From Endozoicomonas numazuensis (GTDB taxonomy: Bacteria; Pseudomonadota; Gammaproteobacteria; Pseudomonadales; Endozoicomonadaceae), in contig NZ_JOKH01000011.1 in assembly GCF_000722635.1 (NCBI RefSeq), forward strand, positions 1 to 49,462: DNA of 49,462 nucleotides, written 5' to 3'. Both the position numbers and the translations under genes were made by a program. Of the stretch, positions 5,579 through 24,347 are shown piece by piece. Numbering within the stretch: position 1 is the stretch's first letter; every line of letters starts with the position of its first letter. Below the pieces are notes generated by a model that saw only the letters and a program-made list of their open reading frames with translations, was not told the DNA's origin and ran no database searches.

Positions 5579-5746
5579 CTAGGAGGCTGACCGAGAATAG
5601 CGTCCGAGCATAAAATTCAGTAGAACGAGTCAGCTTTTTCACTGAATTTGTGCGAATAGTTGACCTATTTAAGCAAATTCAGTGGAAAAGATGGCCGTTC
5701 TTTCTGGATTTTAGGCCGGACTGTCTATTCTCGGACAGCCTCCTAG
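5579..5746 (+). repeat. Family 1 palindromic repeat, copy A
   Basis: This is a 168-bp element in the rodZ-hisS spacer. Its ends form inverted repeats that match at 21 of 22 positions (CTAGGAGGCTG... and its complement). Inside, TTTTTCACTGAATTTG pairs with the arm CAAATTCAGTGGAAAAG, and AATAG/CTATT closes a TTGAC loop, so the whole element folds as one long imperfect hairpin. No protein is encoded. Other copies are at 7687, 23671, 24019 and 24187, with a degenerate inverted copy near 24767. The rest of the 5405-5771 spacer shows no gene. Confidence 0.9.
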
Positions 5747-5771
5747 GGATGATACCTCTACAGGTTATCAA

Positions 5772-6731
5772 TCAACTGGCATCCAAATACAGGCTGGCTA
5801 CTTTGCGACCAGGCTCAGGCACTTTGACCGCCACTTCCCTGCCATCAAACTTGAGATCAGCCACCCCATTAACATTACCAAACCGGACCTGAACAGACGA
5901 AGGTACTTCCAACTCCAGATGAGTACCGGCTTTCTGAACATCGGTATAAAGAGCATTGCCGCTCATATCCTTAATCTGAACCCAGCAGTCTTCAGCAAAC
6001 TGAATGGCCAACCTGACCAGAGAATCCCGATTCTTGGGGAGAGACTCTGTAGTATCCTGCAGAGTCTCAGGGGGTAGAATTGTTTCCGCACTGACCGATT
6101 CCGCCAGGCCTGGATCTTCTGCCTCTTCAGGCATCGAATCCACTTGAGACTCAAGTTCTGAATCCAACTCTGGCTCAATCACTTCAACTTCAGATTCGTC
6201 AAAATCAGCTTGAGCAGGCAAAAGCTCTTCTTCAGAAGGACTTTCAGGCTCAATGATCACCGGAGTTTGCTCCTGTGAGGTTATCTCTAACTCTGAAGAC
6301 GCACGCTTGTCGGAGTTCCATCCGTAATAGCTGCCTGCCCCCACCAGAATCACGGTGAGCAGAGTCGCCCCCCAGGCTATAACCGGAGACATGTGCCTGC
6401 GATTGGTTACTGGTGCGCCGGCTTTCAAGTGAGGTGTATCGACGCCACTATTTCCGGTAAAACGATCGAAGTGATCAACCAGTTCATTATCTACCAACTC
6501 AAGAATTCGGGCATAACTTCTGACATAACCCCGGGCAAAAACCAGCCCTGGCAGTTTTTCAAATTCATTATGCTCAATAGCCAGTATGTAGGACTCTGGC
6601 ACCTTAAGCCGGTCGGCCGCCTCTTCTACAGAAAGACCTGTTTTAAGCCTTGCCGCTTCCAGTACCTGACCTGGAGAGGCTTCTGAAGCCGTCTCCTGGC
6701 CTTTCTGACTGTTTCGCTCATCAGTACTCAT
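5772..6731 (-). CDS. rodZ: Cytoskeleton protein RodZ
   Basis: RodZ is a bitopic membrane protein that links MreB filaments to the elongation machinery and so governs rod shape. The 319-aa product has the N-terminal helix-turn-helix domain at about 22-88 (LSVEEAADRLKVPESYILAIE). A basic stretch and one membrane helix follow at about 115-137. Next come a long acidic linker rich in Glu, Pro and Ser (about 145-235) and the C-terminal periplasmic DUF4115 beta domain (about 240-315). The start codon lies inside the end of pilW (11-bp overlap), so the two are translationally coupled. In relatives ispG follows; here a family 1 repeat and hisS follow instead. Confidence 0.94.
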   Translation of the reverse strand: MSTDERNSQKGQETASEASPGQVLEAARLKTGLSVEEAADRLKVPESYILAIEHNEFEKLPGLVFARGYVRSYARILELVDNELVDHFDRFTGNSGVDTPHLKAGAPVTNRRHMSPVIAWGATLLTVILVGAGSYYGWNSDKRASSELEITSQEQTPVIIEPESPSEEELLPAQADFDESEVEVIEPELDSELESQVDSMPEEAEDPGLAESVSAETILPPETLQDTTESLPKNRDSLVRLAIQFAEDCWVQIKDMSGNALYTDVQKAGTHLELEVPSSVQVRFGNVNGVADLKFDGREVAVKVPEPGRKVASLYLDAS

Positions 6732-7479
6732 AACCGCTTCTACTCCGCACTCCCTCTCCGGTGGAAGAAGGGAATAAACGCCCTAATTGCAAAGAATAAC
6801 TGGCTGCAGCATCCTGATCGCCATTATTTCTGGCCAGGCGAATCCCCAGTTTCAGGGATCGTTCATTCTGACGAGAGAGGCGGGTAAAGACCTGATAGGA
6901 CTGCCAGGCTTCACGAAACCTGCCCTGCTCCTCAAGTATTGCTGCTAATTCCAGACTTGCACGGGGTAAATTACTGTTCAATTTCAGAGCTTTGTCAAAA
7001 TGCTCTGCTGCCAGAGATGATCGCCCTTGCCGCAAAGCCACCAGCCCAAGATTTTCATAAGCTCGGCTTCGACTGCCGTAACGCACATCTTCAGCGGCTT
7101 TTTCAAATTCGCGATAGGCATCCGCCAGACGGTTCTGGCTGAATAGAAAAACACCAAAATTATTATGTATTTCAGAAGAGTCAGAGTTCAGAGACAGGGC
7201 TTTTTTAAAGGATTCTTCTGCCAGACTGGCTTCTCCCTGGAGCTGATAAACCAGCCCAAGCATGCCATAGGCATCTGCAGATCGGGGTTGAATTTCCAAC
7301 GCCCGATTGATCGGTTTGACCGCATTTTCGGTCAGTCCTTGTTGTACATATCCCCTGGCCAGTTCCAGGTAGCTACGGACGGCATCGCCCTCGTTGACAG
7401 GCTCAGGTCCACCGGTCGCCACACAGCCACTCAGGATGATACTGAACAAAACTGCACTGATTCTCAGTTTTGCGATCAT
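6721..7479 (-). CDS. pilW: Type IV pilus biogenesis lipoprotein PilW/PilF
   Basis: PilW (called PilF in Pseudomonas) is the outer-membrane pilotin needed for PilQ secretin assembly in type IV pili. The protein has a lipoprotein signal with lipobox LSGC (Cys19). About six TPR motifs follow, for example AYGMLGLVYQLQGEASLAEE and HNNFGVFLFSQNRLADAYRE. An ATG five codons upstream is also in frame. The ATG at 7479 is preferred because GGGGAGAAG lies immediately upstream of it, giving 252 aa, near the family length. It overlaps rodZ by 11 bp, the arrangement typical of Pseudomonas-like genomes (rlmN-pilF-rodZ-ispG-hisS). Confidence 0.9.
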   Translation of the reverse strand: MIAKLRISAVLFSIILSGCVATGGPEPVNEGDAVRSYLELARGYVQQGLTENAVKPINRALEIQPRSADAYGMLGLVYQLQGEASLAEESFKKALSLNSDSSEIHNNFGVFLFSQNRLADAYREFEKAAEDVRYGSRSRAYENLGLVALRQGRSSLAAEHFDKALKLNSNLPRASLELAAILEEQGRFREAWQSYQVFTRLSRQNERSLKLGIRLARNNGDQDAAASYSLQLGRLFPSSTGEGVRSRSGYEY

Positions 7480-8000
7480 GCTTCTCCCCGTCATTTAATC
7501 GTTTTGATCATCTGGCACATTTATACTTGGAAAACGCCACTCCAGCAGATCACTTGCCAGTACTTCATAGAGCTAACTACTCAGGAGACTATCTATAAGC
7601 AGACAGCGCCCAGAGAGTGTCATTTCCAGCGATTGGTAACGGAATATTAATTCATTTTCATTCTGGATCAGGAACTATCTTTGCGAGGAGCCTGTCGGAC
7701 TTAAGCTTTCGAGCATGAAATTCAGTAGAGTGAGTCAGCTTTTTCGTTGAATTTGTGCGAATAGTTGACCTATTTAAGCAAAATCAACGAAAAAGATGGC
7801 CGCTCTTTCTGGATTTCAGGCCGAAATTGCCTTAAGTCCGACAGGCTCCGAGTGCACAGCGTCATGACTATTTCACCACGCCAGCACCAACACATTCCCT
7901 CAATATCACCATACTAAGTGAACCGGGATAGCCAAGGCCACAGAAATCTGGCCCTGACATCTATATTTCAGCCAACACGATCAGCTCAAGCCTGATTGAA
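7480..8000. other. Gene-free spacer between pilW and rlmN
   Basis: About 520 bp without a supportable gene. It holds family 1 repeat copy B (7687-7849). Open frames here have no ribosome-binding site or family resemblance. A promoter for pilW-rodZ must lie here if rlmN transcription stops, but no convincing -35/-10 pair was picked out. Confidence 0.6.
7687..7849 (+). repeat. Family 1 palindromic repeat, copy B (second subfamily)
   Basis: This is a 163-bp element whose ends are perfect 19-bp inverted repeats (GGAGCCTGTCGGACTTAAG and its complement). The outer arms differ in sequence from copy A but keep the same geometry. The inner stem reads TTTTTCGTTGAATTTG against CAAAATCAACGAAAAAG, with compensating changes relative to copy A. 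The apical segment TGTGCGAATAGTTGACCTAT is identical to copy A. Confidence 0.9.
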
Positions 8001-9149
8001 TCAGCCTGCCTCTGACTGACGAGCAGCGATATAACGCTCACTTCTTCGTGTTTTATCGGCAACCTGTCCCACCAGCTGCCCACAAGCGGCATCAATATCG
8101 TCACCACGAGTCCTGCGAACAGTTACATTAAAACCTGCTTCCTGCAACTGTTCCTGAAAACGACGTACCGCATTATTACTTGGACGCTCGTAACCAGAGT
8201 GCGGAAACGGATTAAAAGGAATCAGGTTGATTTTACAAGGAACGTTCTTCAACAGCTGGGTCAACTGAGTTGCATGCTCAGGCTGATCATTCACACCAGC
8301 CATCAATGTGTACTCGATAGTAACAACACGCTTGTCGGGAAGACCGCTCATATACTGGTCTATCGCATCCAACAGCTCAGCCAGAGGATATTTGCGATTG
8401 ATAGGTACCAATACATTTCGTAATTCGTCATTGGGAGCATGGAGAGATACAGCCAGGGACACGTCGGTCACCTCACCCAGCTTGCGCAGAGCTGGAACAA
8501 CACCCGATGTACTTAGTGTCACCCTTCGCTTTGACAAACCATAGCCGAGGTCGTCCATCATAAGATTCATGGCATCCACGACATTATCAAAGTTCATCAG
8601 GGGTTCACCCATACCCATCATCACCACATTGGTGATAGAGCGATCCTTCTTGGCAGGCACATTATTGAAATGACGCGCAGCAATCCAGACCTGACCAATA
8701 ATTTCCGCGACCGTCAGGTCAGAGTTAAAGCCCTGTTTTCCGGTAGAGCAGAAGCTACAGTCCAGAGAACACCCTGCCTGAGAAGACACACAAAGAGTGC
8801 CTCGCTTTCCGTCCGGAATGTAGACAGTCTCAACACAACTGCCACTGGTTACCCTGACCACCCACTTACAGGTGCCGTCTTCAGAAAACTGACTACTGAC
8901 TACTTCAGGCCCACGAACTTCAGCCACTTCTTTCAGCTTCTGCTTCAGAGTTTTGCTGATATTGGTCATTTCATCAAAGTTATCAACGCCATAGTGATGA
9001 ATCCACTTGAGCATCTGCTCGGCGCGAAACTTCTTTTCACCAATGCTGAGAAAAAAATCCACCATCTTGCTGCGGGACAGATCCAACAGGTTGACTGGCG
9101 TATTCTGAACCTCACCGGTCTCAGCACTTACGGTGATCAATTCTGACAT
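8001..9149 (-). CDS. rlmN: Dual-specificity rRNA/tRNA adenine-C2 methyltransferase RlmN
   Basis: RlmN is a radical-SAM enzyme that methylates C2 of A2503 in 23S rRNA and A37 in some tRNAs. The 4Fe-4S-binding CxxxCxxC motif is at Cys127, Cys131 and Cys134 (CSLDCSFC). The catalytic methyl-carrying Cys lies in [15 protein letters not shown] near residue 356. The SAM-binding MMGMGEPL stretch is present. Length 382 aa is typical (E. coli 384). As an Fe-S enzyme it is a likely client of the ISC system encoded next door. Terminator and promoter features on the ndk side suggest independent transcription. Confidence 0.97.
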
Positions 9150-9161
9150 CTTAATACCTCA

Positions 9162-9270
9162 AAAAGCCATGAGCGTTAAATGTCGCCCAACAGCCAAGGG
9201 GCGGAAATGCACGGTTCCTGAATATGGAAATATATGCACACCTGAAATGGCTGCATTTTCATGATAAAAA
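9162..9270 (+). repeat. Family 3 repeat, divergent copy
   Basis: The sequence contains the head motif AGCCATGAGCG at 9165 and a second degenerate head AACAGCCAAGGGGC. A stem GGAAATGCA (9203-9211) / TGCATTTTC (9252-9260) follows, then a TGATAAAAAA tail. The order is the same as in the better copies at 17093-17179 (minus) and 48205-48307 (plus). It lies upstream of rlmN but reads away from it. The assignment is by eye and the middle is divergent. Confidence 0.55.
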
Positions 9271-9314
9271 ATTTGAGCGCCATTAAACCACAATAGCCAC
9301 GGCATTTTCATAGA

Positions 9315-9369
9315 TAAAAATACAGGGCATACGCCCGAACCCTGCGGTTCAGGACGTATACCCTGTCAT
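9315..9369 (-). terminator. Terminator of ndk
   Basis: On the minus strand a long imperfect stem-loop is followed by TATTTTTAT. The arms contain CAGGG/CCCTG, ATACG/CGTAT and GAACC/GGTTC around a CTGC loop. It starts a few bases past the ndk stop codon. Confidence 0.8.
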
Positions 9370-9373
9370 GTCA

Positions 9374-9805
9374 TTATCTGGTGCGAGGACAAACGTCCGC
9401 TTCTTCAAAGAAGTAGGACACTTCTCTGGCAGCAGAAGTCGGAGAATCCGAACCATGCACAGCATTTTCATCAATAGTCTGAGCAAAATCTGCACGAATA
9501 GTTCCGGCAGCTGCATCAGCAGGGTTAGTAGCACCCATCAGATCACGGTGATGAGCTACGGCGTTTTCACCTTCCAGTACAGATACAACTACTGGACCCG
9601 AAGTCATGAATGCCACCAGATCTTTAAAGAAAGGACGCTCTTTATGCTCAGCATAAAAACCTTCTGCTTTCTCTTGGCTCAGGTGAACCATGCGGGATCC
9701 AACTACCTTCAGGCCGGCTTTTTCAAATCGGCTATAAATCTCGCCAATGACATTTTTAGCAACAGCGTCAGGCTTGATAATTGACAAAGTGCGCTCTACG
9801 GCCAT
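9374..9805 (-). CDS. ndk: Nucleoside diphosphate kinase
   Basis: Ndk balances nucleoside triphosphate pools by passing the gamma phosphate from ATP through a phosphohistidine. The protein starts [20 protein letters not shown] and contains the active-site His117 in the NAVHGSDS signature. The frame extends 14 codons further upstream, but family members start at MAVERT, and GGAGAG is six bases before this ATG. The resulting 143 aa equals E. coli Ndk. A promoter 90 bp upstream and a terminator downstream make it a probable single-gene unit. Confidence 0.98.
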
Positions 9806-9896
9806 TACACTCTCCAAACGTTCTTTTTTTGGCCCAAAATGGGTCAAGTTTATAATTCATAGCGCTACCACCAGTCATTGGGGGAGCTTGGGCCGC

Positions 9897-9925
9897 ATTG
9901 TAAACGATCACTATCCCACTGTCAG
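9897..9925 (-). promoter_or_regulatory. Probable sigma70 promoter of ndk
   Basis: On the minus strand CTGACA (-35) is separated by exactly 17 bp from TACAAT (-10). Transcription would begin near 9890, leaving a leader of about 85 bases before the ndk ATG at 9805. Confidence 0.6.
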
Positions 9926-9982
9926 TCTTATCCGCAAAATCAGCCAAGATAAAACTGATCGCATCTATCAAGATTCAAGACG

Positions 9983-10177
9983 CTATTCAACTTCCTCAAT
10001 CCAGGCCGCCTGAATAGCTTCCAGAATTTTTTCGCCACAGCGTTCCGGATTATCATCAAAATCTTCCAGAGCAATCACCCACGCTCTCAAATCGACAAAG
10101 TTAACAAATTTGGGATCAACACTCGGGTGAATATCAGCCAATTCAGCAGCAATATCGTAGATGTCTGTCCACCTCAT
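9983..10177 (-). CDS. iscX: Fe-S cluster assembly protein IscX
   Basis: IscX is a small acidic protein that binds IscS and iron and modulates cluster assembly. The 64-aa sequence is full length and shows the family pattern: MRWTDIYDIAAELADIHPSVDP at the start, then DLRAWVIALEDFDDNPERC. It has a purine-rich AAGGAAGAAAAG ribosome-binding region. It is the last gene of the isc cluster, about 90 bp after fdx, as in E. coli. Confidence 0.95.
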   Translation of the reverse strand: MRWTDIYDIAAELADIHPSVDPKFVNFVDLRAWVIALEDFDDNPERCGEKILEAIQAAWIEEVE

Positions 10178-10264
10178 AGCTTTTCTTCCTTCTTATAAAT
10201 GACAATCAACACAGTAGATAAGAAAAAAGAGACTCATAGAGCCTCTTTACCAATCGAACAGAAT

Positions 10265-10603
10265 TCAGTGCTTTTCTGACACCTGATTAATGGTGTACTT
10301 TGGAATTTCTACCACCAGGTTTTCTTCAGAAACCACCGACTGACAGCTCAACCGTGACTCAGGTTCCAAACCCCAGGCTCTATCCAGCAAATCTTCTTCC
10401 AGCTCATCAGCCTCATCCATGCTGTCAAAACCTTCACGAACAACCACATGACAGGTCGTACAGGCACAGGATTTTTCGCAGGCATGCTCAATCTCAATAC
10501 CGTTAGCCAGAGCGGCATCACACACCGTCACACCCGGCTCTACCTCAATCACAGCCCCTTCCGGACAAATTTCATCGTGGGGCAGAAATACGATCTGCGG
10601 CAT
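10265..10603 (-). CDS. fdx: ISC-system 2Fe-2S ferredoxin
   Basis: This adrenodoxin-type ferredoxin donates electrons for cluster assembly on IscU. The ligands Cys42, Cys48, Cys51 and Cys87 are in place (ACEKSCACTTC and SRLSCQSV), with the non-ligand Cys46 also conserved as in E. coli Fdx. Length is 112 aa. AAGGAG precedes the start from inside the end of hscA, and the intergenic gap is 2 bp, so it is translated from the hscA mRNA. Confidence 0.97.
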   Translation of the reverse strand: MPQIVFLPHDEICPEGAVIEVEPGVTVCDAALANGIEIEHACEKSCACTTCHVVVREGFDSMDEADELEEDLLDRAWGLEPESRLSCQSVVSEENLVVEIPKYTINQVSEKH

Positions 10604-10605
10604 TT

Positions 10606-12471
10606 TCAGGACTCCTTGAATTCGTCAATCTTGTGACCCGAGAGTGCTTTACGAATACCCGAATTCATTCGACGGGCAGCAAACTCATCACTAGCCTTGC
10701 TGATACGTTCAATTTCCAGCTTGATTGCCTCTGCACTGCCCGAACGTTTCACTTCGCCCAGGTTTTCAAGGTCAGCCACCAGCCGGTTAAACTCATCTTC
10801 ACTTAACAGTTCACGCCCATCTGCCTTGAGCGCCGTATCCAGAGCCTCCACCAGACGATCAGCCTCAACTTCCTGCTCTCGCAGCTTCCTGGCATCCCGA
10901 TCTTCTTCAGCACTGGTCATGGATTCTTTCAGCATGCGAGCAATTTCATCATCAGTCAGACCATAAGAGGGCTTAACCTGCACACTGCTTTTGACACCCG
11001 TCGCCATTTCTTCGGCCGAAACATCCAACAGACCATCAGCGTCAACTTGAAACGTTACACGGATCTTGGCGGCACCTGCTGGCAGAGGCGGAATACCTCT
11101 CAATTCAAAGCGCGCCAGCGAACGATTATCACTTACCAGCTCACGCTCTCCCTGAAGCACCTGAATAGCCATAGCAGTCTGACCATCCTTGTAAGTAGTG
11201 AACTCCTGGGCCCTGCTCACAGGGATTGTTGTGTTTCTATGGATCACTTTTTCCATCAGCCCGCCCATTGTCTCAAGGCCAAGGGACAGAGGAATCACAT
11301 CCAACAGCAACATATCTTCGGCAGACTTGTTTCCTGCCAGGACGTTGGCCTGCTGAGCCGCTCCAATGGCTACAACCCGATCCGGATCAATGGACGTCAA
11401 AGGGTTTTTACCGGAGAATTCAGCGACCGATTCACGAACCAAAGGTACACGGGTAGAACCACCCACCATGACCACTTCGTGAATTTCTTCCGCCTTGATA
11501 CCCGCATCACGCAGAGCGCGCTTGAAAGATCTGATGGTTCTGGTGACCAGAGGCTTAACTAATTCATTAAACTGAACGCGTGACAACTCCCCCTGCCAAC
11601 CATTAAACGTTACTTCAACATTGTCAGCATTCGTCAGGGCTTCTTTTACACGACAGGCTTCTATCATGACAGCCCTGTGGCTGCCACTATCCAGGTCGCT
11701 TTCAGCAACAGAAGCACATTCCAGAATCCATTGAGCCACCTCCTTATCAAAGTCATCACCACCCAGCGCTGTATCACCACCGGTCGCCATGACTTCAAAC
11801 ACACCTTTTTGCAATCTTAGAACAGAGATATCAAACGTCCCCCCTCCCAGATCATAAACAGCAATAACACCTTCAGTCCCTTCATCCAGACCATAGGCAA
11901 CTGCCGCAGCAGTAGGCTCATTTAAAAGACGATAAACGTGCAAACCTGCGAGTTTTGCTGCATCTTTGGTTGCCTGACGCTGAGCGTCATCAAAGTATGC
12001 CGGCACAGTTATAACCGCACCATCCAGCTCACCACCAAGACTGTCTCTGGCGCGCTCAGCCAGAGCACGCAAAATCTCAGCAGACACTTCAACCGGACTG
12101 ACTGCACCGCGACGGGTTTCAATCAAAGGCATGCTGCTTTCTGACTGAACAAAGTGATAAGGCATCACTTCGCCCAACGTATTAACATCTTCCAGACCAC
12201 GCCCCATCAATCGTTTGATAGAAACGATAGTATTGAAAGAATCGTCAATTACGTGAGGCTTGGCGACCAAACCAACCTCCACGCCCTGTTCTGAATACCG
12301 CACAATAGAAGGCAGGATGTGCTGACCATCATAATCTGGCAGTGTTTCTGCAGAACCAGACCTGACCGTTGCCACCAATGAATTGGTAGTACCCAGATCA
12401 ATGCCTACTGCACGTTTTTGCTGATGAGGTTCCGGAGCCAGCCCGGGTTCAGATATCTGAAGAAGTGCCAT
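10606..12471 (-). CDS. hscA: Fe-S assembly chaperone HscA (Hsp66)
   Basis: HscA is the specialised Hsp70 that, with HscB, releases clusters from IscU by binding its LPPVK motif. That motif is present in the IscU encoded in this operon. The 621-aa product has the Hsp70 phosphate-binding loop [15 protein letters not shown], the [16 protein letters not shown] loop, the [15 protein letters not shown] region and the C-terminal substrate-binding domain. Length matches the family (E. coli 616). It follows hscB by 9 bp. Confidence 0.97.
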
Positions 12472-12480
12472 ATTCGATTC

Positions 12481-13035
12481 TCAATCATCCAGGAGCTCGG
12501 ATTCCAGCTGTTCCAGTTCGTTAGACAGCTTTACCATAAATTGCATTTTTTGAACGACAGCCGAAGCCTGCTTAAGAGAAGCCTCATCCCCTTTTTGCCA
12601 AAGGAATGCAAAATCATTCTGATAATCAGTGACGGATTGATCCACCTGAGCCATCAGCCGATCCAGTTCTGCCTCCGGGTCCTGATGCTCACGCACTTCG
12701 CTGACAGCTTCCCTCAGCTCCATTTGCTCCATCAGAAATACGGTATCCATCACCGTATTATTCTCCAGATCAACGGGGTGACCCGCCAGTTCCAGCAGGT
12801 AGAGTGCACGTTTAAGGGGTGATTTCAGGGTTTCAAGCCCTTCATTAACATAGGCCGCATATTGGACTGCGATCCTCTGTTGTCGCTCACCCTCACCCGC
12901 AAAACGGTCAGGATGAACTGACTTCTGCAGCTCACGATACCGCTCGGATAACAACGCCTGATTGACCTGAAACTCGACAGGCAACTGAAACAGTTCGAAA
13001 AAATTCTTAGTTAAATCGACCACGATACCGGACAT
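12481..13035 (-). CDS. hscB: J-domain co-chaperone HscB
   Basis: HscB delivers IscU to HscA and stimulates its ATPase. The N-terminal J domain carries the HPD tripeptide at residues 41-43 (KSVHPDRFAGEGERQQRIA), and a C-terminal three-helix IscU-binding domain follows. The frame is open to a TTG at 13080. The first ATG, at 13035, gives 184 aa, nearer the family size (E. coli 171), but its ribosome-binding site is weak. A GTG a few codons further in is also possible. It is separated from iscA by 218 bp containing a terminator-like hairpin. Confidence 0.93.
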   Translation of the reverse strand: MSGIVVDLTKNFFELFQLPVEFQVNQALLSERYRELQKSVHPDRFAGEGERQQRIAVQYAAYVNEGLETLKSPLKRALYLLELAGHPVDLENNTVMDTVFLMEQMELREAVSEVREHQDPEAELDRLMAQVDQSVTDYQNDFAFLWQKGDEASLKQASAVVQKMQFMVKLSNELEQLESELLDD

Positions 13036-13158
13036 TCCGAATGAGTGGAGGCCGGAACAACGCTGCCTGATGAACAGCAACAGATATCCCGGTAGTTATT
13101 CTGCTTCGCAGCCTGGAAAACTGGCCAAGAGCGGTCAGCACTCCTACCTTTCAACGAC

Positions 13159-13196
13159 AAAAAGTCCTTCATCACCTGAGTGACGAAAGACTTTTT
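13159..13196 (-). terminator. Terminator-like hairpin between iscA and hscB
   Basis: The arms AAAAAGTC and GACTTTTT enclose an inner TCAC/GTGA pair, and on the minus strand the stem ends in TTTTT. It stands about 60 bp after the iscA stop and 120 bp before hscB. It could attenuate transcription so that iscRSUA is made in excess over hscBA-fdx-iscX. This role is inferred; only the hairpin is seen. Confidence 0.6.
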
Positions 13197-13253
13197 AAGC
13201 GTATTCAAATACGAGCGGGCTCAAGCTGCATGTATCTCACTGTACGTCGGAGT

Positions 13254-13577: not shown

Positions 13578-13648
13578 GAGATACTCCAACTCAATACATA
13601 AGTCCAATAGATCAGATCATTCACGAATGAATGCAACTCATCCGTGGA

Positions 13649-14041: not shown

Positions 14042-14068
14042 GATATTTTCCTCCCACCCAAATCGATA

Positions 14069-16177: not shown

Positions 16178-16206
16178 TAAAAATGCGACGGCTTATAAGC
16201 CGTCGC
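16178..16206 (-). terminator. Terminator of cysE
   Basis: A perfect palindrome GCGACGGCTTA/TAAGCCGTCGC (16185-16206) is followed on the minus strand by ATTTTTA. It separates the trmJ-cysE side from the isc promoter. Confidence 0.8.
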
Positions 16207-16242
16207 TATTGTATACAAGAGGTGTTACGCATCCAAGTAAAA

Positions 16243-17049
16243 TCACGGATGTGAAACCGTTTCACCCTCAGCGTCTGACTTCACGCTTGCAAAATCCTCT
16301 TCTCTCAACTCTGGAAGTTGCTTGTCACCACAGTCAAGACCTCGCTCCCTGAGCGTCAGACAAAGCTTTTCGATCCGCCCATCAACCGCCTGCATATGAT
16401 CCAGCATTGCCGAGATCGCATTAGCGGTCGGGTCTGGCATATCCTCAGTGACGGCATAGGCATCAAAACCTATTTTTTCAGCCATCTTCTGGCGTCGACA
16501 GTCCACTTCTTCACGCTTCTTAACGATACGCCCGGGAATACCAACTACTGTCGCACCGTCAGGCACTTCACGAACAACAACAGAGTTTGAACCAATTTTG
16601 GCATTTGCCCCTACAACGAAGGGGCCCAACACTTTAGCCCCTGCCCCTACTACAACACCCTCCATAAGAGTCGGATGCCGTTTACCTCGGTTGGCAGGGT
16701 GCTCCTTACCCCTGTTAGGCGACGTCCCTCCAAGAGTCACTCCATGATAAAGTGTTACGTCGTCATGAATAATGGCGGTTTCACCAATGACTACACCCAT
16801 TCCGTGATCTATAAAAAAACGTCGACCAATAGTCGCACCCGGGTGTATTTCTATACCCGTTAGCCAGCGACTGAATGTGGACAGTGTTCGACCCAGCCAA
16901 CAGAACCCTGACTTCCAGATCTTGTGTGCTGCACGGTGCAATAATAAAGCATGAAGTCCCGGATAGTTGGTAAGAACCTCAAAGGTGCCCCGAGCTGCGG
17001 GATCACGCTCCATAACAGTTCTTATATCTTCTTTTAAACGTTCAAACAT
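16243..17049 (-). CDS. cysE: Serine O-acetyltransferase CysE
   Basis: CysE makes O-acetylserine, the first step of cysteine synthesis. The 268-aa protein has an N-terminal helical part and a left-handed beta-helix of hexapeptide repeats. The catalytic signature [21 protein letters not shown] and the [20 protein letters not shown] loop are present. The C-terminal extension is longer than in compact EpsC-type enzymes. Placement next to iscRS is conserved in Pseudomonas-like genomes and fits supply of cysteine to IscS. A family 3 repeat lies about 45 bp before its start, in sense orientation. Confidence 0.96.
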
Positions 17050-17092
17050 GGGTCAAATCGTCACTTGCTTCTTCTGGATTCCACAGATTGTT

Positions 17093-17179
17093 ATTCTTTA
17101 CTACGAAAATGCAGCTCTATTAAACCCTGTAACCATTTCATGTTTCGGGGTGAGGTGCACTTCCTGCTCATGGCTGTTT
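17093..17179 (-). repeat. Family 3 repeat upstream of cysE
   Basis: Read on the minus strand it begins AAACAGCCATGAGC, continues with the arm GGAAGTGCACCTC and a small CATGAAATG hairpin, then the return arm GAGCTGCATTTTC and the tail TAGTAAAG. The 12 of 13 arm pairs include two G-U wobbles. Its closest relative is 48205-48307, which shares the head, spacing and tail. It ends 44 bp before the cysE start codon. Confidence 0.75.
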
Positions 17180-17268
17180 ATCCTGAAAAACATCTTGCAG
17201 CATCACCCTTTCAACAAGAGCGGCAACACAAAACATTCCTCGTCACTCAGAGCGGCACAACCACATTA

Positions 17269-18039
17269 TTATGTCTTCTGAGCACTTTCACTTTTTTCTG
17301 CTTGGTCAGCCTTCTCAGCACACTTTCCGGTTTCGGACAAAATACCTCGAAGAATGTTCAGCTCGACACGATCAGGACGAATGCGCCCATACATGCGCCT
17401 GAGCTTAGCCATGATCTTCTCATGACTGCTGTGCTCAAGAAAGCCTATTTGTACAAGCGTCTTATATAAATGCTCATAGAATCGCTCAACATCCTCCTGA
17501 CTCGCAAGATCATGCGACCTCGGGATAGGCAGCGGCAACTCTCCTCGCGTCACTGCCAACCAGGCCATTCTCAACTCATAAGCCATAACCTGAACGGCAG
17601 CCCCCAGATTCAGAGAGCTGAAATCCGGATTAGTAGGAACATGCACCTGCAGATGACACATTTGAAGCTCTTCGTTGGTCATCCCGCGATCTTCTCTTCC
17701 AAATACCAGGGCAATCTGCCCCGCTCCCGCCTCTCCAAGAATCTGGCTGGCACAGGCTCGAGGGTCAACCAAGGGTAACGACACCCCACGCACTCTGGCA
17801 CTGGTACCCACTACAAAATGACAGTCCGCCACCGCTTCTTCCAACGTACCGACCACTTTGGCATTGGCTAACAAATCATCAGCACCGGATGCCAGTGCAA
17901 AAGCCTTGCCCGACGGGAACTCCAGAGGCTCAACCAGAACCAGCCTGCTAAGCCCCATAGTCTTCATAGCTCTTGCCGCCGCTCCGATATTGCCCGGATG
18001 GGTGGTGTTAATCAGAACAATGGAAATATTGTCGAGCAC
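17269..18039 (-). CDS. trmJ: tRNA (cytidine/uridine-2'-O-)-methyltransferase TrmJ
   Basis: TrmJ 2'-O-methylates position 32 of several tRNAs and belongs to the SPOUT class. The N-terminal knotted methyltransferase domain shows INTTHPGNIGAAARAMKTMG, LVFGREDRGMTNEE and the knot motif SSLNLGAAVQVMAYELR. The C-terminal part is helical and ends in a Lys/Glu/Ala tail. The frame is open to 18153 with no ribosome-binding site. The GTG at 18039 starts VLDNISIVLINT, which matches the E. coli start MLQNIRIVLVET, giving 256 aa. The start is therefore uncertain while the function is clear. Confidence 0.93.
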   Translation of the reverse strand: MLDNISIVLINTTHPGNIGAAARAMKTMGLSRLVLVEPLEFPSGKAFALASGADDLLANAKVVGTLEEAVADCHFVVGTSARVRGVSLPLVDPRACASQILGEAGAGQIALVFGREDRGMTNEELQMCHLQVHVPTNPDFSSLNLGAAVQVMAYELRMAWLAVTRGELPLPIPRSHDLASQEDVERFYEHLYKTLVQIGFLEHSSHEKIMAKLRRMYGRIRPDRVELNILRGILSETGKCAEKADQAEKSESAQKT

Positions 18040-18515
18040 CGACGGCTCAATTGCGACTGCGTCACTCACTGGGGGAAATCTCGCTTGGATCAACAACAAG
18101 GAGCCAATAATCAGCTCATCAAAATCATGAAAGCCACTAAGAACCTGCATCAAGCGGGGCTTTCACGGCGTAAATCAATCGAATCGGCAAGTGTAACCTA
18201 ATCCGATTTCAACAGCCATGAGCTGAAGACGTTCCACACCATCAATAGTAAAGCAGATAACACCTGTCCCTCTTTAGAGAAGGTGGAGACAAGTCCTGTG
18301 AGCGCCCTGCCAACAGAAAAACCACCGATCTCATCGAAGCAGCTTCGAAAGGTTTCTAACCGCAAATAACATCTGTTATACTCCGCCGACTATTTTCCAG
18401 TCACTGGCCTAATACCCGGTTTTTTTTCATTCCGGAGTAGGAAACCAGTCTGTACCAGGCTGCCGCACCCCTCGGTCAGCATATTGATCTTTCACAGTCA
18501 GACGTAGTCCAGCCT
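18040..18515. other. Divergent intergenic region trmJ/suhB
   Basis: About 475 bp. It holds the possible in-frame upstream part of trmJ (to 18153) and a partial family 3 element: the head AACAGCCATGAGC at 18208-18220 and an ATAGTAAAG tail about 25 bp later, without the middle hairpin. It also holds the suhB promoter region. No other gene is supported. Confidence 0.5.
18353..18382 (+). promoter_or_regulatory. Possible suhB promoter
   Basis: A good -10 box TATACT (18377-18382) is followed by a GC-rich CCGCCG stretch. The only -35 candidate is a weak TTTCTA 18 bp upstream. The same TATACT followed by C and G residues occurs before tRNA-Leu and valS in this window. Confidence 0.45.
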
Positions 18516-19331
18516 ATGCAACCCATGGTGAACATGGCCCTGCGAGCAGCTCGCTCGGCCGCCGAAATTATTCTTCACGCCCACCAGGACCTCGAGAGTC
18601 TCAAGGTTCAGGCAAAAGACCGGAATGATTTTGTCACAGAAGTAGACAGAGCCTCCGAAAAAACGATCATCGGCGCTCTGATGAAAGCTTACCCCGACCA
18701 CGGATTCTACGGTGAAGAATCCGGCATGACTGAAGGAAAAGGTGATGGTAAGGACTACCTCTGGATCATTGATCCACTGGATGGTACTACCAACTTCATC
18801 CGTGGCATCCCAACTTTTGCCATTTCCATTGCCTGCCAGTATCGCGGCCGGATCGAGCACGCCGTTGTACTCGACCCTATTCACGATGAAGCTTTCTGCG
18901 CGAGCCGGGGACAGGGTGCCACCCTGAACAGTAAACGCATTCGCGTAAGCGGACGCAAAAGCCTTGAAGGCGCACTGATTGGAACCGGCATTCCTTTTTC
19001 TGGCAGTAATCTCAACTATGTAGATGGCTACCTGAACATGATGCGCTCCCTGCTGGGAGACACTGCCGGTATCCGTCGTGCAGGTGCCGCCGCTTTGGAC
19101 CTGGCCTATGTAGCTTGCGGTCGCCTGGATGCCTTCTGGGAATTCGGACTGCAGAAGTATGACATGGCAGCTGGCTCCCTGCTGATTCAGGAAGCTGGAG
19201 GTCTGTGCAGCGATTTTAATGGCGGGCACGACTTCCTGGACAAAGGCCAGATTGTTGCCGCCAACCCAAGATGTTTCAAAGAAGTACTTCAGCGCATTCG
19301 CCCATTCGCGAATGAAAACATGGGACGCTGA
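18516..19331 (+). CDS. suhB: Inositol-1-monophosphatase family protein SuhB
   Basis: SuhB is a Mg-dependent inositol monophosphatase that in E. coli also takes part in rRNA antitermination complexes. Metal-binding motifs are present: GFYGEESG, the IDPLDGTTNF core and the late YDMAAGSLLIQEAGG. Length is 271 aa (E. coli 267). The MQPMVNMALRAARSAAEII start matches the family. It stands divergent to trmJ, as is usual, and ends at its own terminator. Confidence 0.97.
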   Translation: MQPMVNMALRAARSAAEIILHAHQDLESLKVQAKDRNDFVTEVDRASEKTIIGALMKAYPDHGFYGEESGMTEGKGDGKDYLWIIDPLDGTTNFIRGIPTFAISIACQYRGRIEHAVVLDPIHDEAFCASRGQGATLNSKRIRVSGRKSLEGALIGTGIPFSGSNLNYVDGYLNMMRSLLGDTAGIRRAGAAALDLAYVACGRLDAFWEFGLQKYDMAAGSLLIQEAGGLCSDFNGGHDFLDKGQIVAANPRCFKEVLQRIRPFANENMGR

Positions 19332-19339
19332 CCCCTTAG

Positions 19340-19369
19340 GGCCTTACCCTCCGGGGATAAGGCCTTTTT
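19340..19369 (+). terminator. Terminator of suhB
   Basis: GGCCTTA and ATAAGGCC form a stem around CCC-TCCG-GGG and are followed by TTTTT. It lies 8 bp past the suhB stop and between convergent genes. Confidence 0.8.
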
Positions 19370-19379
19370 CCAGACATAC

Positions 19380-19919
19380 TCACTTCACTAATTTCGCCAC
19401 ATCCCGAAACACATCACACTCTGCTGTTTTCATCAGTTCAAAGAGCACCATTTCTACACTGGTCAGCTCAACACCTTTCCTTGCCAACTTATCTAACGCC
19501 AGTCGTTTGTTATGCTTGGACCTGGACGAAGTTGCATCCACTACCACCTCAACATCATAACCCCGCTCCATTAAATCCAGAGCCGTCTGATAGACACAAA
19601 TATGAGCCTCTATCCCTGCCAGTAATACTTGAGTTTTACCTGAAGCCTTTAATGAGTCCATAAAATCCGGCTGCCCACAACCACTGAATGAAGCCTTAGC
19701 CATAGGGACCGCGCCTTTCAACGCCTCAGCCAACACGGGAGTCGTACGCCCAAGTTTTTCTGGCAACTGCTCTAACCAGAACACAGGCAGCTCCAGCAAT
19801 TGAGCCCCTTTGACCATTCTTACCAGGGCATCATGCATCCTTTCCTGTTTATACATTAACGAGGCAAGCTTACCCTGCACATCCACTACCACCAGAGCAG
19901 TATTATTCCGACTCAGCAT
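19380..19919 (-). CDS. Isochorismatase-family cysteine hydrolase
   Basis: The 179-aa protein has the alpha/beta fold of the isochorismatase (YcaC-like) superfamily. The expected catalytic triad is visible: Asp13 (VVVDVQGKL), Lys75 (MAKASFSG) and Cys108 (GIEAHICVYQTALDL), with the typical cis-peptide region just before the cysteine. It most resembles the short cytosolic hydrolases of unknown substrate. It is a single gene convergent with suhB. Family assignment is firm, substrate unknown. Confidence 0.9.
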   Translation of the reverse strand: MLSRNNTALVVVDVQGKLASLMYKQERMHDALVRMVKGAQLLELPVFWLEQLPEKLGRTTPVLAEALKGAVPMAKASFSGCGQPDFMDSLKASGKTQVLLAGIEAHICVYQTALDLMERGYDVEVVVDATSSRSKHNKRLALDKLARKGVELTSVEMVLFELMKTAECDVFRDVAKLVK

Positions 19920-20197
19920 ATTGATACCTTAAGCAGATAAAGCCTCTAGTTTAATAAACCTTCCTTTAAAAACATATTCAAACCTCTACCTGTTTACCAC
20001 CTTTCCCAAGCCCACCCAATGCCAGATAACCGTCTAAACTGGCGACAATGGTTTTCAGCCTGAATGAGGTGTGTCTAGGCCAAGAATAAGATTCAGTTTC
20101 AGAAAGGATTGAGTCTGATTCAGTTTTTCGAACTTAATGTAAGGCAGTAGTTCTGGGCATCTCTCCAAGAGAGTAAAATCACTCTGAGAGGTGACCA

Positions 20198-20437
20198 ATG
20201 ACTACCAGGAAAAATAGAAAGTTCCATTCCCCTGAATTCAGAGCTAAGGCATTGAAGCTGGCCGAAAAAACCAGAGCATCTTCTGCTGCTAAAGAGCTTG
20301 AACGACAAGAATCTCAGCTCTATATCTGGCGAACTGCCGCTAACCGGAAAAAATCAGTAAGTGAGCGTGGATCGGTACTGCAAGTACCCAACCCTATATA
20401 CCCATTGGATTTCAAGATGCTACCAGGTGACAAGTGA
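20198..20437 (+). pseudogene. IS3-family OrfA remnant
   Basis: The first 50 or so residues (MTTRKNRKFHSPEFRAKALK, then ASSAAKELERQESQLYIWRT) match OrfA proteins of IS3/IS911-type elements, with the N-terminal helix-turn-helix intact. After about residue 55 the similarity stops, and from 20397 the sequence is an ERIC-like repeat, so the gene is cut off. No OrfB is present. Upstream bases 20130-20197 probably include the left IS flank, including the AGAGAGTAAAATCACTCT palindrome-like leader. Confidence 0.75.
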
Positions 20438-20524
20438 GCGAAGCCCTGTGAGCCTACAAGTAGTAGGTGATCAGGGTGAGCGAACGCTGGCAACAACGTA
20501 GCATCTTGAAAGGCGATGGGTATA
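20397..20524 (+). repeat. ERIC-like repeat, copy 1 (family 2)
   Basis: A 128-bp imperfect palindrome bounded by TATACCCATTGGATTTCAAG and TCTTGAAAGGCGATGGGTAT. Inside are GTGAGCGAAGCCCTGTGAG and CAGGGTGAGCGAACGCTGGC. Length, the TATACCC ends, the CTTGAA arms and the central GTGAGCGAACGC segment match what is known of ERIC/IRU elements (about 127 bp) of enterobacteria and vibrios. It interrupts the IS3 orfA remnant. Confidence 0.8.
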
Positions 20525-20744
20525 AATCATACTTTCTGACTCATTGCTCTGGCAACCTCGGCAACTACTCCCGCATTGCAACTCTAGTCACATAGCTGGT
20601 TATGCTCCCGCCGTTACGTCTTGCAGGATACCTGCTCAATAAGCCAGAAACATTCGATTCCATCAGGCTGGGTAGTTACGAATAAAAATGAAACGAAGTA
20701 AGTTTAATTGATAGGTAGTCACTCAAAAGACAGGAAAGGCTTGC
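20525..20744. other. Gene-free spacer before the secF terminator
   Basis: About 220 bp with no supportable gene. It includes an AT-rich part and may contain further IS3 debris, but no recognisable transposase residues could be read. Confidence 0.4.
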
Positions 20745-20776
20745 ATAAAAAAGCCGGCCTTTTTACGGGCCGGCTT
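20745..20776 (-). terminator. Terminator of the secDF operon
   Basis: Stem AAGCCGGCC/GGCCGGCTT (20751-20776), followed on the minus strand by TTTTTTATGC. It lies about 50 bp beyond the secF stop. Confidence 0.9.
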
Positions 20777-20824
20777 CTATCAAACGTTTAAGCACTTAAA
20801 AGATAAGCATATCAATCAGTATTC

Positions 20825-21757
20825 TCAAGGCGTCTGATCAACATCATCTTCCTTAACAGGAACAATCAGATCTTCGCGACTGATCTTCATGTAGATCAGA
20901 AGATTGGAGGCAATGTAGATGGAGGAATAAGTACCCACACCAATACCGACTATCAGTGCGGTGGCAAAACCATTGATCATTTCACCACCAAACAGGAAGA
21001 GTGAAAGCAGCACCATCAGAGTGGTACCAGAGGTTGCCAATGTCCGACCGAGAGTCTGAGTCAGGGAAACATTGATTATCTCATCGGCATCCCCCTTTCT
21101 CAGCTTCCTGAAGTTTTCACGAATCCTGTCGTACACAATAATAGTATCGTTCAACGAGTAACCTATCACTGCCAGAATCGCCGCAAGAACGGTCAGGTCA
21201 AACTGCAACTGCAGCATGGAAAACAAGCCAAGCACGATAATAGAGTCATGAGTCAAGGCCAAAACCGCGCCAACAGAGAACTTAAACTGGAAGCGGAAAG
21301 CGATGTAAAGCATAACCATGCCAAGCGCCATCAGCATTCCCAGACCGCCCTGCTCTCGCAGTCGTTCACCTACCTGAGGCCCAACAAACTCAACCCGTTT
21401 AACGACAACACTGCCATCGTGATTCTGATCAAGCAGCTTGGCAATATTGTGACCCAGAGCGGGATCATCGCCAGGAATTCGAACCAGAATATCCCGGACT
21501 GAACCGAACTCCTGAACCACTGCATCACCGTATCCTGCCTCACCCAACTGCCCACGAATGTTTTCCGTGTTAGCTGGCTTATCATAGACAAGCTCAATCA
21601 GGGTACCGCCGGTAAAATCCAACCCCCAGTTAATTCCCTTGGTGGCCAGAGAAGCCAGGGAGCCAACGATCATCACAATGGAAAGAATGGTTGCGTAAGT
21701 ACGCAACTTCATAAAATTGATTGTTTTATCGCCCAAGGCTGTTTTTTGATCTGCCAT
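20825..21757 (-). CDS. secF: Protein translocase subunit SecF
   Basis: SecF pairs with SecD to use the proton gradient for late steps of protein export. The 310-aa protein has six membrane helices, the first at about residues 22-40, and the characteristic GLDFTGGTLIELVY motif just after it. The conserved helix-4 region VIGYSLNDTIIVYDRIREN is intact. GAGGTG precedes the ATG at 21757, which is preferred to a GTG three codons upstream. It follows secD by 10 bp. Confidence 0.97.
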   Translation of the reverse strand: MADQKTALGDKTINFMKLRTYATILSIVMIVGSLASLATKGINWGLDFTGGTLIELVYDKPANTENIRGQLGEAGYGDAVVQEFGSVRDILVRIPGDDPALGHNIAKLLDQNHDGSVVVKRVEFVGPQVGERLREQGGLGMLMALGMVMLYIAFRFQFKFSVGAVLALTHDSIIVLGLFSMLQLQFDLTVLAAILAVIGYSLNDTIIVYDRIRENFRKLRKGDADEIINVSLTQTLGRTLATSGTTLMVLLSLFLFGGEMINGFATALIVGIGVGTYSSIYIASNLLIYMKISREDLIVPVKEDDVDQTP

Positions 21758-21767
21758 TGTGACCACC

Positions 21768-23630
21768 TCAAATGCTCAGTTTCTTGAGATCACGACGACC
21801 GCCATACACCAGATTCACCAGTGAACGGGTTACCATAATCGCAGTGAACATGGATGTGACGATACCGATAGACAGAGTCACAGCGAAGCCCTTGATCGGA
21901 CCTGTACCCACTGCGAAGAGGATCAACCCCACCAGCAGCGTAGTAATGTTTCCGTCAAAGATCGAAACAAAGGCCCGGTCATAACCATCGTGAATAGCAC
22001 GCTGAACCGGCCGACCCAACTTGATTTCCTCACGTATTCGCGAGAACACCAGAACGTTGGCATCTACAGCCATACCCAGTGTCAGCACTATACCGGCTAT
22101 ACCCGGCATGGTCAGTGTTGCACCAAAGATACTCATCGCAGCGGTCAACAGCATCAGGTTGATAGCCAGAGCAATATTAGCCAACAGACCAAATACCCGG
22201 TATACCACCATCATGAACATGACAACCATACCCAGGCCCATCAATGTGGAGTCCACCCCCATCTTGATGTTCTCGGCACCCAGGCTCGGACCTACGGTTC
22301 GCTCTTCAACGAAGTACATAGGAGCAGCAAGGGAACCAGCACGCAGCAACAGCGCCAGCTCAGAAGCTTCTCCAGAGGAGTCCAGGCCGGTAATACGGAA
22401 CTGGTTACCCAGTGCCGACTGAACGGTTGCAAGACTGATTACCCGTCTTTCTTCACGGAAGCCAGGCACTTTGACCTTAACCTTTTCTCCGTCAACTTCA
22501 CGGGTCTCAGTACGCGTCACAGGTTTCTGCTCGATGAAAATAACCGCCATGCTTCGCCCGATATTATTTCGGGTAGCATTATTCATCTTCTTACCACCAG
22601 TACTGTCCAGACTGATGTTTACCTGCGGCTGACCACTTTCGGTATCAAAATTGGACTGAGCACTGGAAACCCGCTCACCGGTAATAATGATGTCGCGTTC
22701 CAGATTAACTGAACGACCACGATAGTCAAAAGACTCAGTATTACTGCGAGAAGCGTTTGCCAAAGCCTCAAGGCGGAATTCAAGGTTAGCGGTTTTACCC
22801 AGAATACGCTTGGCTTCAGCGGTATCCTGCACACCAGGCAGTTCAACAACAATATTGTTACGTCCCTGACGTTGTACCAGAGGCTCAGACACACCCAGTT
22901 CATTGACACGGTTACGAACTGTCGTCAGGTTTTGCTTGACCGCATAATCTTCCAGTTCACGTATATATTGTTCTGAATAACGGTAGGAAACCACATAACG
23001 CTCACCCAGATCTTCTGTCTCTACCAGCAAATCTGGAAACTCTCGCTTGATTCTCCGTTCAGCCTTATCACGAGTGGCCTCATCCAGGAAGGCCAGCTGA
23101 CGGGCTCCGTCTGTACGGTCAGGCATAGTACGATAACGCAGCCTTTCCTTTCGCAGAAGCGCTCTGATTTCTGTATTAGATATATCCAGCTTGGTCTTAA
23201 CAGCCCGATCGGTATCCACTTCCAACTGGAAATGTACACCACCTGACAGATCCAGACCCAGTTTCATGGGATAAGCGCCAATGGAAGTCAACCAATCTGG
23301 CGTAGTCGGAGCCAGGTTGATCGCAACAATATAATCATCGCCCAGAGCATCTTTAATAACTGATTTCGCCAGCTGCTGCTGATCAGCATGCTTCAGTCGA
23401 ATCAACAAGGCATTATTTTCAGTATCACTGGCTTTGGCCTCTATATTGGCCGCATCCAGTGCTTTTTGCGCCTTTGCCTGCACACCAGCAGTGATCGTCT
23501 CTGATGAGCTAGCGCCCGATATCTGTATAGCAGGATCATCGGGGTACAAGTTAGGTAGAGCGTACACAAAACCAAGTGCAACAATCATTGCAATCAGCAG
23601 GTACTTCCACAGGGGATATCGATTGAGCAT
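21768..23630 (-). CDS. secD: Protein translocase subunit SecD
   Basis: SecD is the large partner of SecF. The 620-aa product has one N-terminal membrane helix (about 9-27), the large periplasmic P1 domain and the GLDLSGGVHFQLEVD motif. Five C-terminal membrane helices include LTLGMAVDANVLVFSRIREE and FDGNITTLLVGLILF. Length fits the family (E. coli 615). The ATG follows a GGTGGG box. The upstream spacer to yajC is 730 bp long and filled with family 1 repeats, which is unusual for this operon. Confidence 0.97.
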   Translation of the reverse strand: MLNRYPLWKYLLIAMIVALGFVYALPNLYPDDPAIQISGASSSETITAGVQAKAQKALDAANIEAKASDTENNALLIRLKHADQQQLAKSVIKDALGDDYIVAINLAPTTPDWLTSIGAYPMKLGLDLSGGVHFQLEVDTDRAVKTKLDISNTEIRALLRKERLRYRTMPDRTDGARQLAFLDEATRDKAERRIKREFPDLLVETEDLGERYVVSYRYSEQYIRELEDYAVKQNLTTVRNRVNELGVSEPLVQRQGRNNIVVELPGVQDTAEAKRILGKTANLEFRLEALANASRSNTESFDYRGRSVNLERDIIITGERVSSAQSNFDTESGQPQVNISLDSTGGKKMNNATRNNIGRSMAVIFIEQKPVTRTETREVDGEKVKVKVPGFREERRVISLATVQSALGNQFRITGLDSSGEASELALLLRAGSLAAPMYFVEERTVGPSLGAENIKMGVDSTLMGLGMVVMFMMVVYRVFGLLANIALAINLMLLTAAMSIFGATLTMPGIAGIVLTLGMAVDANVLVFSRIREEIKLGRPVQRAIHDGYDRAFVSIFDGNITTLLVGLILFAVGTGPIKGFAVTLSIGIVTSMFTAIMVTRSLVNLVYGGRRDLKKLSI

Positions 23631-23670
23631 GGCCCACCGGTTCCTGTTCTATATATTAAATGCCTGGATC

Positions 23671-23871
23671 AGGAGTCTGGTCGTGAATAGTGCACAAGCA
23701 TAAAATTCAGTAGAACCAGACACAGCCTTGAACGTTCTGGGTAGCTTCGTTGTATTTGTGCGAATAGTTCAGCTATTCAATCAAATTCAACGGAGCTGTT
23801 TAGAACCACTTAAAGCTGCGGCTGTTCGTTCTGGATTTCAGGCCGGATGATCTATTCTCAGTCAGGCTCCT
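23671..23871 (+). repeat. Family 1 palindromic repeat, copy C (long, divergent)
   Basis: A 201-bp version with ends AGGAGTCTGG...GAATAG and CTATTCTCAGTCAGGCTCCT and the conserved apical TTTGTGCGAATAG...CTATT segment. The loop reads TTCAG rather than TTGAC. Extra bases on both sides of the inner stem (GTTCTGGGTAG on the left, GTTTAGAACCAC on the right) make it longer than the others. Confidence 0.8.
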
Positions 23872-24018
23872 AATGCCTGTTCAGGGAACGAATATTCTCC
23901 CTGATACCCAGGCAAAATCCGTTTCTCCAGAGATAACCGGAAACCGTCTTCGATGTCCGGTCGCGCTTTTTTATCGTGAAATAATTTTCAATCATCAAAA
24001 GTGCGAAAAATTATTTCC

Positions 24019-24186
24019 CTAGGAGGCTGACCGAGAATAGCATCCAAGCATAAAATTCAGTAGAACGAGTCAGCTTTTTCACTGAATTTGTGCGAATAGT
24101 TGACCTATTTAAGCAAATTCAGTGGAAAAGATGGCCGTTCTTTCTGGATTTTAGGCCGGGCTGTCTATTCTCGGTCAGCCTCCTAG
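24019..24186 (+). repeat. Family 1 palindromic repeat, copy D
   Basis: A 168-bp element nearly identical to copy A, with perfect 22-bp inverted ends beginning CTAGGAGGCTGACCGAG. It directly abuts copy E, forming a tandem pair of two subfamilies. Confidence 0.92.
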
Positions 24187-24347
24187 AAGCCTGTCGGACT
24201 TCAGCTTTCGAGCATGAAATTCAGTAGAGCGAGTCAGCTTTTCGTTGGATTTGTGCGAATAGTTGACCTATCTAAGCAAATTCAACGGAAAAGATGGCCG
24301 TTCTTTCTGGATTTCAGGCCGAAATTGTCTTAAGTCCGACAGGCTCC
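24187..24347 (+). repeat. Family 1 palindromic repeat, copy E (second subfamily)
   Basis: A 161-bp element close to copy B. The outer arms are GCCTGTCGGACTTCAG and CTTAAGTCCGACAGGC (one mismatch). The inner stem TTTTCGTTGGATTTG pairs with CAAATTCAACGGAAAAG using a G-U pair. It ends 14 bp before the yajC stop codon. Confidence 0.9.

Follow-up and report, generated by a model that had tools for sequence, protein, structure and literature searches.

Miniature inverted-repeat transposable elements (MITEs) with a partner in the IS1182 family of insertion sequences (ISs) are known from Methanosarcina acetivorans, where the passage on ISMac2 in PMC3852290 gives two such elements of 160 and 169 bp, the shorter with a direct repeat of 4. 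For the IS1182-family member ISPse1, 4-bp direct repeats are reported in the relevant part of PMC3281130, and the corresponding text of PMC8027508 gives ISPsy36 a palindromic 4-bp target, GGCC, and names CTAG for another element, ISPsy32. Endozoicomonas genome papers report many transposases and repeats in the sections concerned (PMC5240137, PMC4781883); searches of open-licence PMC papers on Endozoicomonas or on IS1182 MITEs showed no mention of the elements described here. These are dispersed hairpins, which we call family 1, in a 49,462-nucleotide stretch of Endozoicomonas numazuensis (the window, which is contig C11, NZ_JOKH01000011.1, of a 6.34-Mb genome). We conclude, with a probability of about 0.8, that they are MITEs mobilised by IS1182-family transposases and that their interior hairpin is upheld by selection, by arm-to-arm correction, or by both.

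The hairpin bodies are mostly 160-161 bp long, carry no transposase gene, and are present in many dispersed copies, as is typical of MITEs. Their outer arms come in two types, A and B, and a search of the same genome with arm A plus a base that is unusual for hairpins at that place gave 35 places; several were hairpin variants, and among the others were two facing ends 1.7 kb apart. These bound an IS of 1705 bp at C1:349709-351413 with an intact 504-aa reading frame, and its transposase matches NF033551 (IS1182) at 363.4 bits against a cut-off of 270 (463 aa scanned). At both hairpin ends the first 22 bp, made up of CTAG and the 18 bp of arm A, recur without change at both ends of this A-type IS; the hairpin interior of about 125 bp has no significant match to it. 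Next comes a match of 11 bp (E 0.053), in which the tip and the inner side of the IS end share AATAGGTCAAC; it is possibly a second transposase site, and may be due to chance. We note that GAATAG is present in both end A and the tip (5647-5675; inner end of the A-type IS, L195). Further long transposase matches in the genome lie at C1:880255 and C9:92491.

For arm B, the corresponding pattern found one solitary end only in the E. numazuensis genome, and B-ended IS1182-family elements (1625 bp, with 10 and 32 N) were found instead in the genome of a sister species, G001. In a genome of another genus (G021), a hairpin with the same end type is directly adjoined by sequence that shares 72% identity with the A-type transposase. 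A third IS1182 group was tried as a partner and set aside, the ends being unrelated at the ten loci read. Both outer-arm types are thus transposon ends, and their pairing follows from that; the covariation of the outer arms, which a preliminary description of this DNA had taken as a sign of structure, is terminal-inverted-repeat identity and is uninformative about RNA. That description had left open a selected RNA or DNA structure and a transposon-derived palindrome, and the second option is well supported, since the same genome has an IS1182-family element whose ends are identical and whose frame is intact.

The insertion sites agree with such a partner. CTAG stands on both sides of 58 of the 82 copies gathered from this genome, as it does on both sides of the IS itself, which is the pattern expected of target duplication. 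At L010 and L028 a family-1 copy lies inside the CTAG of another palindromic repeat (family 2), of which an unfilled version with a single CTAG is present in the window. Copy 4 of the window appears to have been put into the flanking CTAG of copy 5. The family-1 motif is absent at the rodZ loci of relatives L152-L162 (four of which were aligned, L152-L155, the last of them poorly) and none of 10 relatives has one in the yajC region; around copies 3, 4/5, and 6, the alignments with relatives are too divergent to call exact duplications.

The hairpins are abundant in this genome and become recognisable much more widely once structure is taken into account. With up to three mismatches, the pattern of the apical tip occurs at 91 forward and 81 reverse places (172 in all), at 18 and 15 places in G001, at one in G010, and at none in the other eight genomes of the genus; the reversed pattern, used as a control, gave no places. 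From the loci read we gathered 115 copies, 82 in this genome and 33 in G001, after dropping copies in which an end motif was missing or 15 bp of flank could not be had, bodies under 120 bp, and copies whose flanks repeat those of another. The 87 distinct bodies minus four long forms of >170 bp (L137 was kept) make up alignment A2, which represents the window subfamily with 83 distinct bodies. Its 66 pairs are formed in 96.0% of cells, and 35 pairs have changed on both sides, in 377 cells, compared to 120 cells in shuffled controls and at most 69 in slid ones. A covariance model built from A2 matches 25 of 38 genomes of the bacterial family at E <= 0.001, in four of eight genera; these comprise 11/11 genomes of the genus itself, 1/3, 11/12, and 2/6 in three others, and 0/6 in the remaining four (per-genome counts are rough, since at most 77 candidates were scored in each and both strands of a palindrome can match). 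Within the genus, therefore, the structure model reaches 11/11 genomes, compared to 3/11 for the tip pattern. One pattern scan of viral contigs with a class I segment gave no matches.

Twenty-four of the wider-family loci were read, yielding 25 matches (from 45 listed with both strands counted), which are 158-161 bp long save one of 173 and mostly have A- or B-like ends, L248 and L255 being different. Three of them, L246, L248, and L255, are close to the window subfamily, with 71-75% interior identity to the copy at L004, and the others, which we divide into class I and class II, have 45-56%. Alignment A4 joins 12 representatives of the window subfamily (from this genome and G001) to 23 from the wider family, 35 in all, omitting L251, L271, L273, the first match of L272, and the 173-bp match in L256. 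Its 50 pairs are formed in 95.7% of cells, versus 72.3% in shuffled and at most 51.4% in slid controls; two-sided changes touch 37 pairs and 380 cells, where shuffling gives 126 cells and sliding no more than 154; for covariation the score stands at 0.616 versus 0.198. These controls do not tell an RNA from a DNA palindrome. The tip is kept throughout the larger set, with AATAG in 35 of 35 representatives and CTATT in 33 (TTATT in two), and five of its pairs are never broken, four of them never varying. In 33 of 35 the 5′ arm has a GAG at a constant register, facing a partner that varies (GGCC in 15, AGAC in 11, GACC in four, and others in five).

Across four genera, then, the interior keeps its length, its pairing, and its tip while the sequence of its arms turns over, and with the tip fixed and the arms paired despite that turnover these are not plain MITEs. 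The preliminary description had proposed a covariance model, a search of relatives, and a covariation test; in the larger set the pairing exceeds the shuffle and slide controls. It had also named a transposase with identical ends in the same genome, loss of the tip in a larger set, and arms pairing no better than simple duplication would give as marks of plain MITEs; the first of these is found, and the other two are not.

Several observations weigh against our main reading of IS1182-mobilised MITEs with an upheld interior. CTAG is lacking on one or both sides in 24 of the 82 copies in this genome, one of which has equal tetramers (CGAG, copy 2), and in 26 of the 33 in G001 (7/33 have it), with equal tetramers in 1/26; with so few equal tetramers outside the CTAG group, a clean duplication is mostly confined to young copies. 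Of the 25 wider-family matches, 12 have CTAG on both sides. Hybrids of the A and B arms and long forms extended on one side persist, so pairing is not required for the survival of a copy. Paired and unpaired interior columns change alike (3.32 changes per column each), which speaks against a strong general constraint. Moreover, the wider-family loci are mostly the best match in each genome to a model that contains the tip, so that copies with poor tips may be under-sampled and the invariance of the tip is somewhat favoured.

In the young group changes break pairs freely, and between subfamilies pairing is kept, a pattern that would follow from selection acting on active copies as they fold, or equally from template switching between the arms. 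In its fullest form, the selective account makes the interior a functional hairpin of fixed architecture, set on interchangeable IS1182 ends and spreading through the bacterial family, with its length, its AATAG/YTATT tip, and its GAG register held by selection while the arms co-vary; the family would then be a structure-defined MITE superfamily whose tip is recognised. We advance this tentatively, and rate it at somewhat under even odds. Alternatively, there may be no structural selection, with template switching between arms keeping long palindromes symmetric as the subfamilies drift. Such correction agrees with the equal rates at paired and unpaired columns, with class I and II, where G·U is not above A·C, and with the 16 of 43 compensated double changes in the interior that are transversion-type on the tree and lack a wobble intermediate (the other 27 are transition-type and can pass through a wobble). 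Frequent correction should, however, erase asymmetric internal loops and mismatches, yet the GAG register is kept opposite its variable partner, the loop flanking the tip persists, and among the young copies there are some whose broken pairs have not been corrected. That the loops are retained argues against correction as the sole cause, an account that we regard as conceivable and on balance doubtful.

A different account of the same folding would have the interior expressed from the plus strand and selected as an RNA hairpin that is bound or processed, the transposon ends being a mere vehicle. Since a G·U wobble becomes an A·C mismatch in the complementary strand, an excess of G·U would be expected if one folded strand were under selection. 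In the window subfamily the signal leans that way: the plus strand folds better than the minus in 83 of 83 bodies (mean -88.4 versus -69.4), one-sided changes of Watson-Crick pairs give G·U over A·C at 75:38 for pairs predicted from either strand and 32:13 for pairs predicted from both (a plus-strand-only count of 69:25 is biased by how its pairs were chosen), and the interiors of the 12 representatives have 60 G·U and 18 A·C. In all 20 class I and II representatives, too, the plus strand gives the better fold, although the model assigned their orientation. In those same 20, however, G·U and A·C stand at 38 to 45, and in the three subfamily-like representatives from other genomes they stand at 19 to 13. 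Unpaired columns, taken as a control, lean in the same direction, though less (25:19), as do the family-2 palindromes of the window (4:1 and 3:1); the outer arms have no significant bias (22:14), and within the young A group new changes do not lean towards wobbles (uncompensated, eight G·U and six A·C; compensated, two and two). Nothing in the window matches Rfam at the gathering score, the 16 weak hits to copy 1 (15 microRNA and one small RNA) all lying below it and belonging to generic hairpin models, and the hairpins show no clear preference for either orientation with respect to the genes beside them. The evidence on polarity is thus mixed, suggestive in the window subfamily and not upheld in the others; given the lean in the controls and the 38:45 in class I and II we do not claim an RNA, and consider one unlikely. 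Two other kinds of transposase have been considered as partners. Repetitive extragenic palindromic (REP) elements and REPINs are dispersed palindromes that have REP-associated tyrosine transposases (RAYTs), and the 22 Y1_Tnp matches in this genome, together with the resemblance of hairpins with tetranucleotide flanks to REPs, would suggest a Y1 (HUH) transposase, as for REP/RAYT or IS200/IS605 derivatives. At the 20 of these 22 loci that were read with 1.5-kb flanks, however, there is no Y1 gene flanked by these hairpins and no family-1 end, tip, or middle motif, whereas the IS1182 ends match exactly, and we give this origin almost no weight. CTAG is also a known target of IS630, and pieces of DDE_3 transposase are present in the genome; yet none of the six DDE_3 loci appears to have family-1 ends as its own (four have family-2 ends nearby and two have neither), making an IS630 MITE highly improbable.

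Returning to mobilisation by IS1182, we propose that the elements would be moved in trans by a partner transposase, which would cut at the border between arm and CTAG and insert the element into a CTAG, thereby duplicating it. Two different IS1182 transposases would serve the A-ended and B-ended elements, and recombination between copies would yield the A/B hybrids. In lineages that are still transposing, the ability to form the hairpin may be maintained through selection on the strand that folds, through template switching that corrects one arm from the other, or through both, and a single inserted copy would then decay neutrally.

The five hairpins of the preliminary description are real, each found exactly at the coordinates given there or a few bases away, and its two outer-arm types, its inner-stem change from CACTGAA/TTCAGTG to CGTTGAA/TCAACG, and its nearly fixed tip are all borne out among the window copies (Table 1). 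Its statement that all copies have the same orientation is wrong for the window, as there is a sixth, diverged copy on the minus strand. Folding into a hairpin holds for the three of the five copies that were folded singly, all far more stable than shuffles: the region 5575-5752 (copy 1) folds at -105.7 kcal/mol (z -12.9), 7682-7854 (copy 2) at -99.3 (z -14.6), and 23667-23875 (copy 3) at -82.9 (z -7.0), with 0 of 200 shuffles equally stable in each case. The matching of each outer arm with its own complement is true of many copies and not of all, since 12 of 56 distinct N-free copies are mixed (35 are A/A, eight B/B, six A/B, six B/A, and one is unclassified). The genes neighbouring the hairpins in the window are hisS, rodZ, pilW, rlmN, secF, secD, yajC, tgt, and queA; through RodZ, one named relative was obtained, E. 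arenosclerae ab112, at 74% identity.

Table 1. Family-1 hairpins of the window and the parts of the element defined in copies 1 and 2 (positions are those of the window).
Feature	Position	Strand	Remarks
Copy 1, A/A	5579..5746, body 5583-5742	+	CTAG on both flanks; between rodZ and hisS; 185.3 bits
Copy 2, B/B	7684..7852, body 7688-7848	+	CGAG on both flanks (equal tetramers, non-CTAG site); 176.1 bits
Copy 3, diverged long form	23669..23873	+	197-bp body, both arms carrying additional sequence; located between secD and yajC; 62.9 bits
Copy 4, A/A	24019..24186, body 24023-24182	+	Right CTAG common to copy 5; 181.2 bits
Copy 5, B/B	24183..24350, body 24187-24346	+	Right flank CCAG; 160.1 bits
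Copy 6, diverged, missed in the preliminary description	24767..24934, body 24771-24930	-	Between yajC and tgt; 103 bits; repeat pairs I1-I4
Outer arm A, terminal inverted repeat, 18 bp after CTAG	5583..5600	+	Identical to both ends of the IS at G000:C1:349709-351413
Outer arm B, terminal inverted repeat	7688..7705	+	Shares 18 and 16 of 19 bases with the two ends of the G001 (C58) IS1182-family elements
Apical tip TTTGTGCGAATAGTTGACCTATTTAAGCA	5647..5675	+	AATAG and TATT invariant in 35/35 aligned representatives

Both arms are extended in the long form of copy 3; other long forms have an extended 5′ arm only (L097, L107, L111, and L148 in G001, 179 bp) or an extended 3′ arm (L137, seen in alignment A2, its body having been clipped by the end search). 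Both hybrids and long forms would arise if copies exchanged halves or segments with one another; by eye, the extra 5′ segment in L097 is complementary to the 3′ one in L137, as though long and short halves had been swapped. Far shorter derivatives are also seen in the genome (L165, L172, and the left flank in L017), down to two ends nearly back to back.

None of the 94 copies with enough flank lies inside a reading frame of at least 120 aa, and the orientations of their left and right flanking genes are minus/minus in 29, plus/plus in 19, minus/plus in 21, and plus/minus in 16, with nine unresolved. Insertion into terminator-like loops is in weak excess, 3 of 69 sites in this genome and 3 of 32 in G001 passing a 1% threshold set from mismatched flanks; at L013, L097, L104, and L106 the copy sits between the arms of a flanking inverted repeat resembling a transcription terminator. 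The window has two further dispersed repeats. The family-2 palindrome lies at 20397-20524 and 49043-49183, with ends TATACCCATTGGATTTCAAG, and similar ends occur close to pieces of IS630-type (DDE_3) transposase at other places in the genome (L091, L093); a third, short repeat around AACAGCCATGAGC occurs on both strands, at 9161-9189, 17136-17180, 18211-18240, and 48219-48263.

These hairpins have ends that are exchangeable between two transposases and an interior that keeps its shape more than its sequence. A sequence pattern alone misses many members. If selection keeps the shape, there would be an unknown step in the life of the element, for example binding of the tip, an intermediate that is folded, or an effect on host tolerance; if correction between arms keeps it, the family would be a natural record of palindrome repair.

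Among known systems, REP and REPIN elements with their RAYTs are likewise dispersed palindromes, whereas the ends and target found here fit an IS1182 DDE transposase. As described in the relevant part of PMC10969869, Correia elements and hairpin MITEs are similarly short and intergenic, with inverted-repeat ends shared with an IS and transcripts predicted to fold; here the interior arms change together while the pairing and the tip stay, a feature on which that text is silent. The A-type IS resembles ISPse1 and ISPsy36, which are about 1.65 kb long and have 4-bp direct repeats (ISPse1) or a palindromic 4-bp target (ISPsy36) in the passages concerned (PMC3281130, PMC8027508), although the target reported for ISPsy36 is GGCC and that found here is CTAG (PMC8027508). 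In size and partner the hairpins are like the ISMac2 MITEs of M. acetivorans, of 160 and 169 bp in 14 and 7 copies, again with an IS1182-family partner; the passage describing them (PMC3852290) is silent on interior structure, whereas the interior is traced here across four genera and with two end types. MITEs with an IS1182 partner are therefore known, and what is new is an interior whose shape is kept and whose ends are exchangeable.

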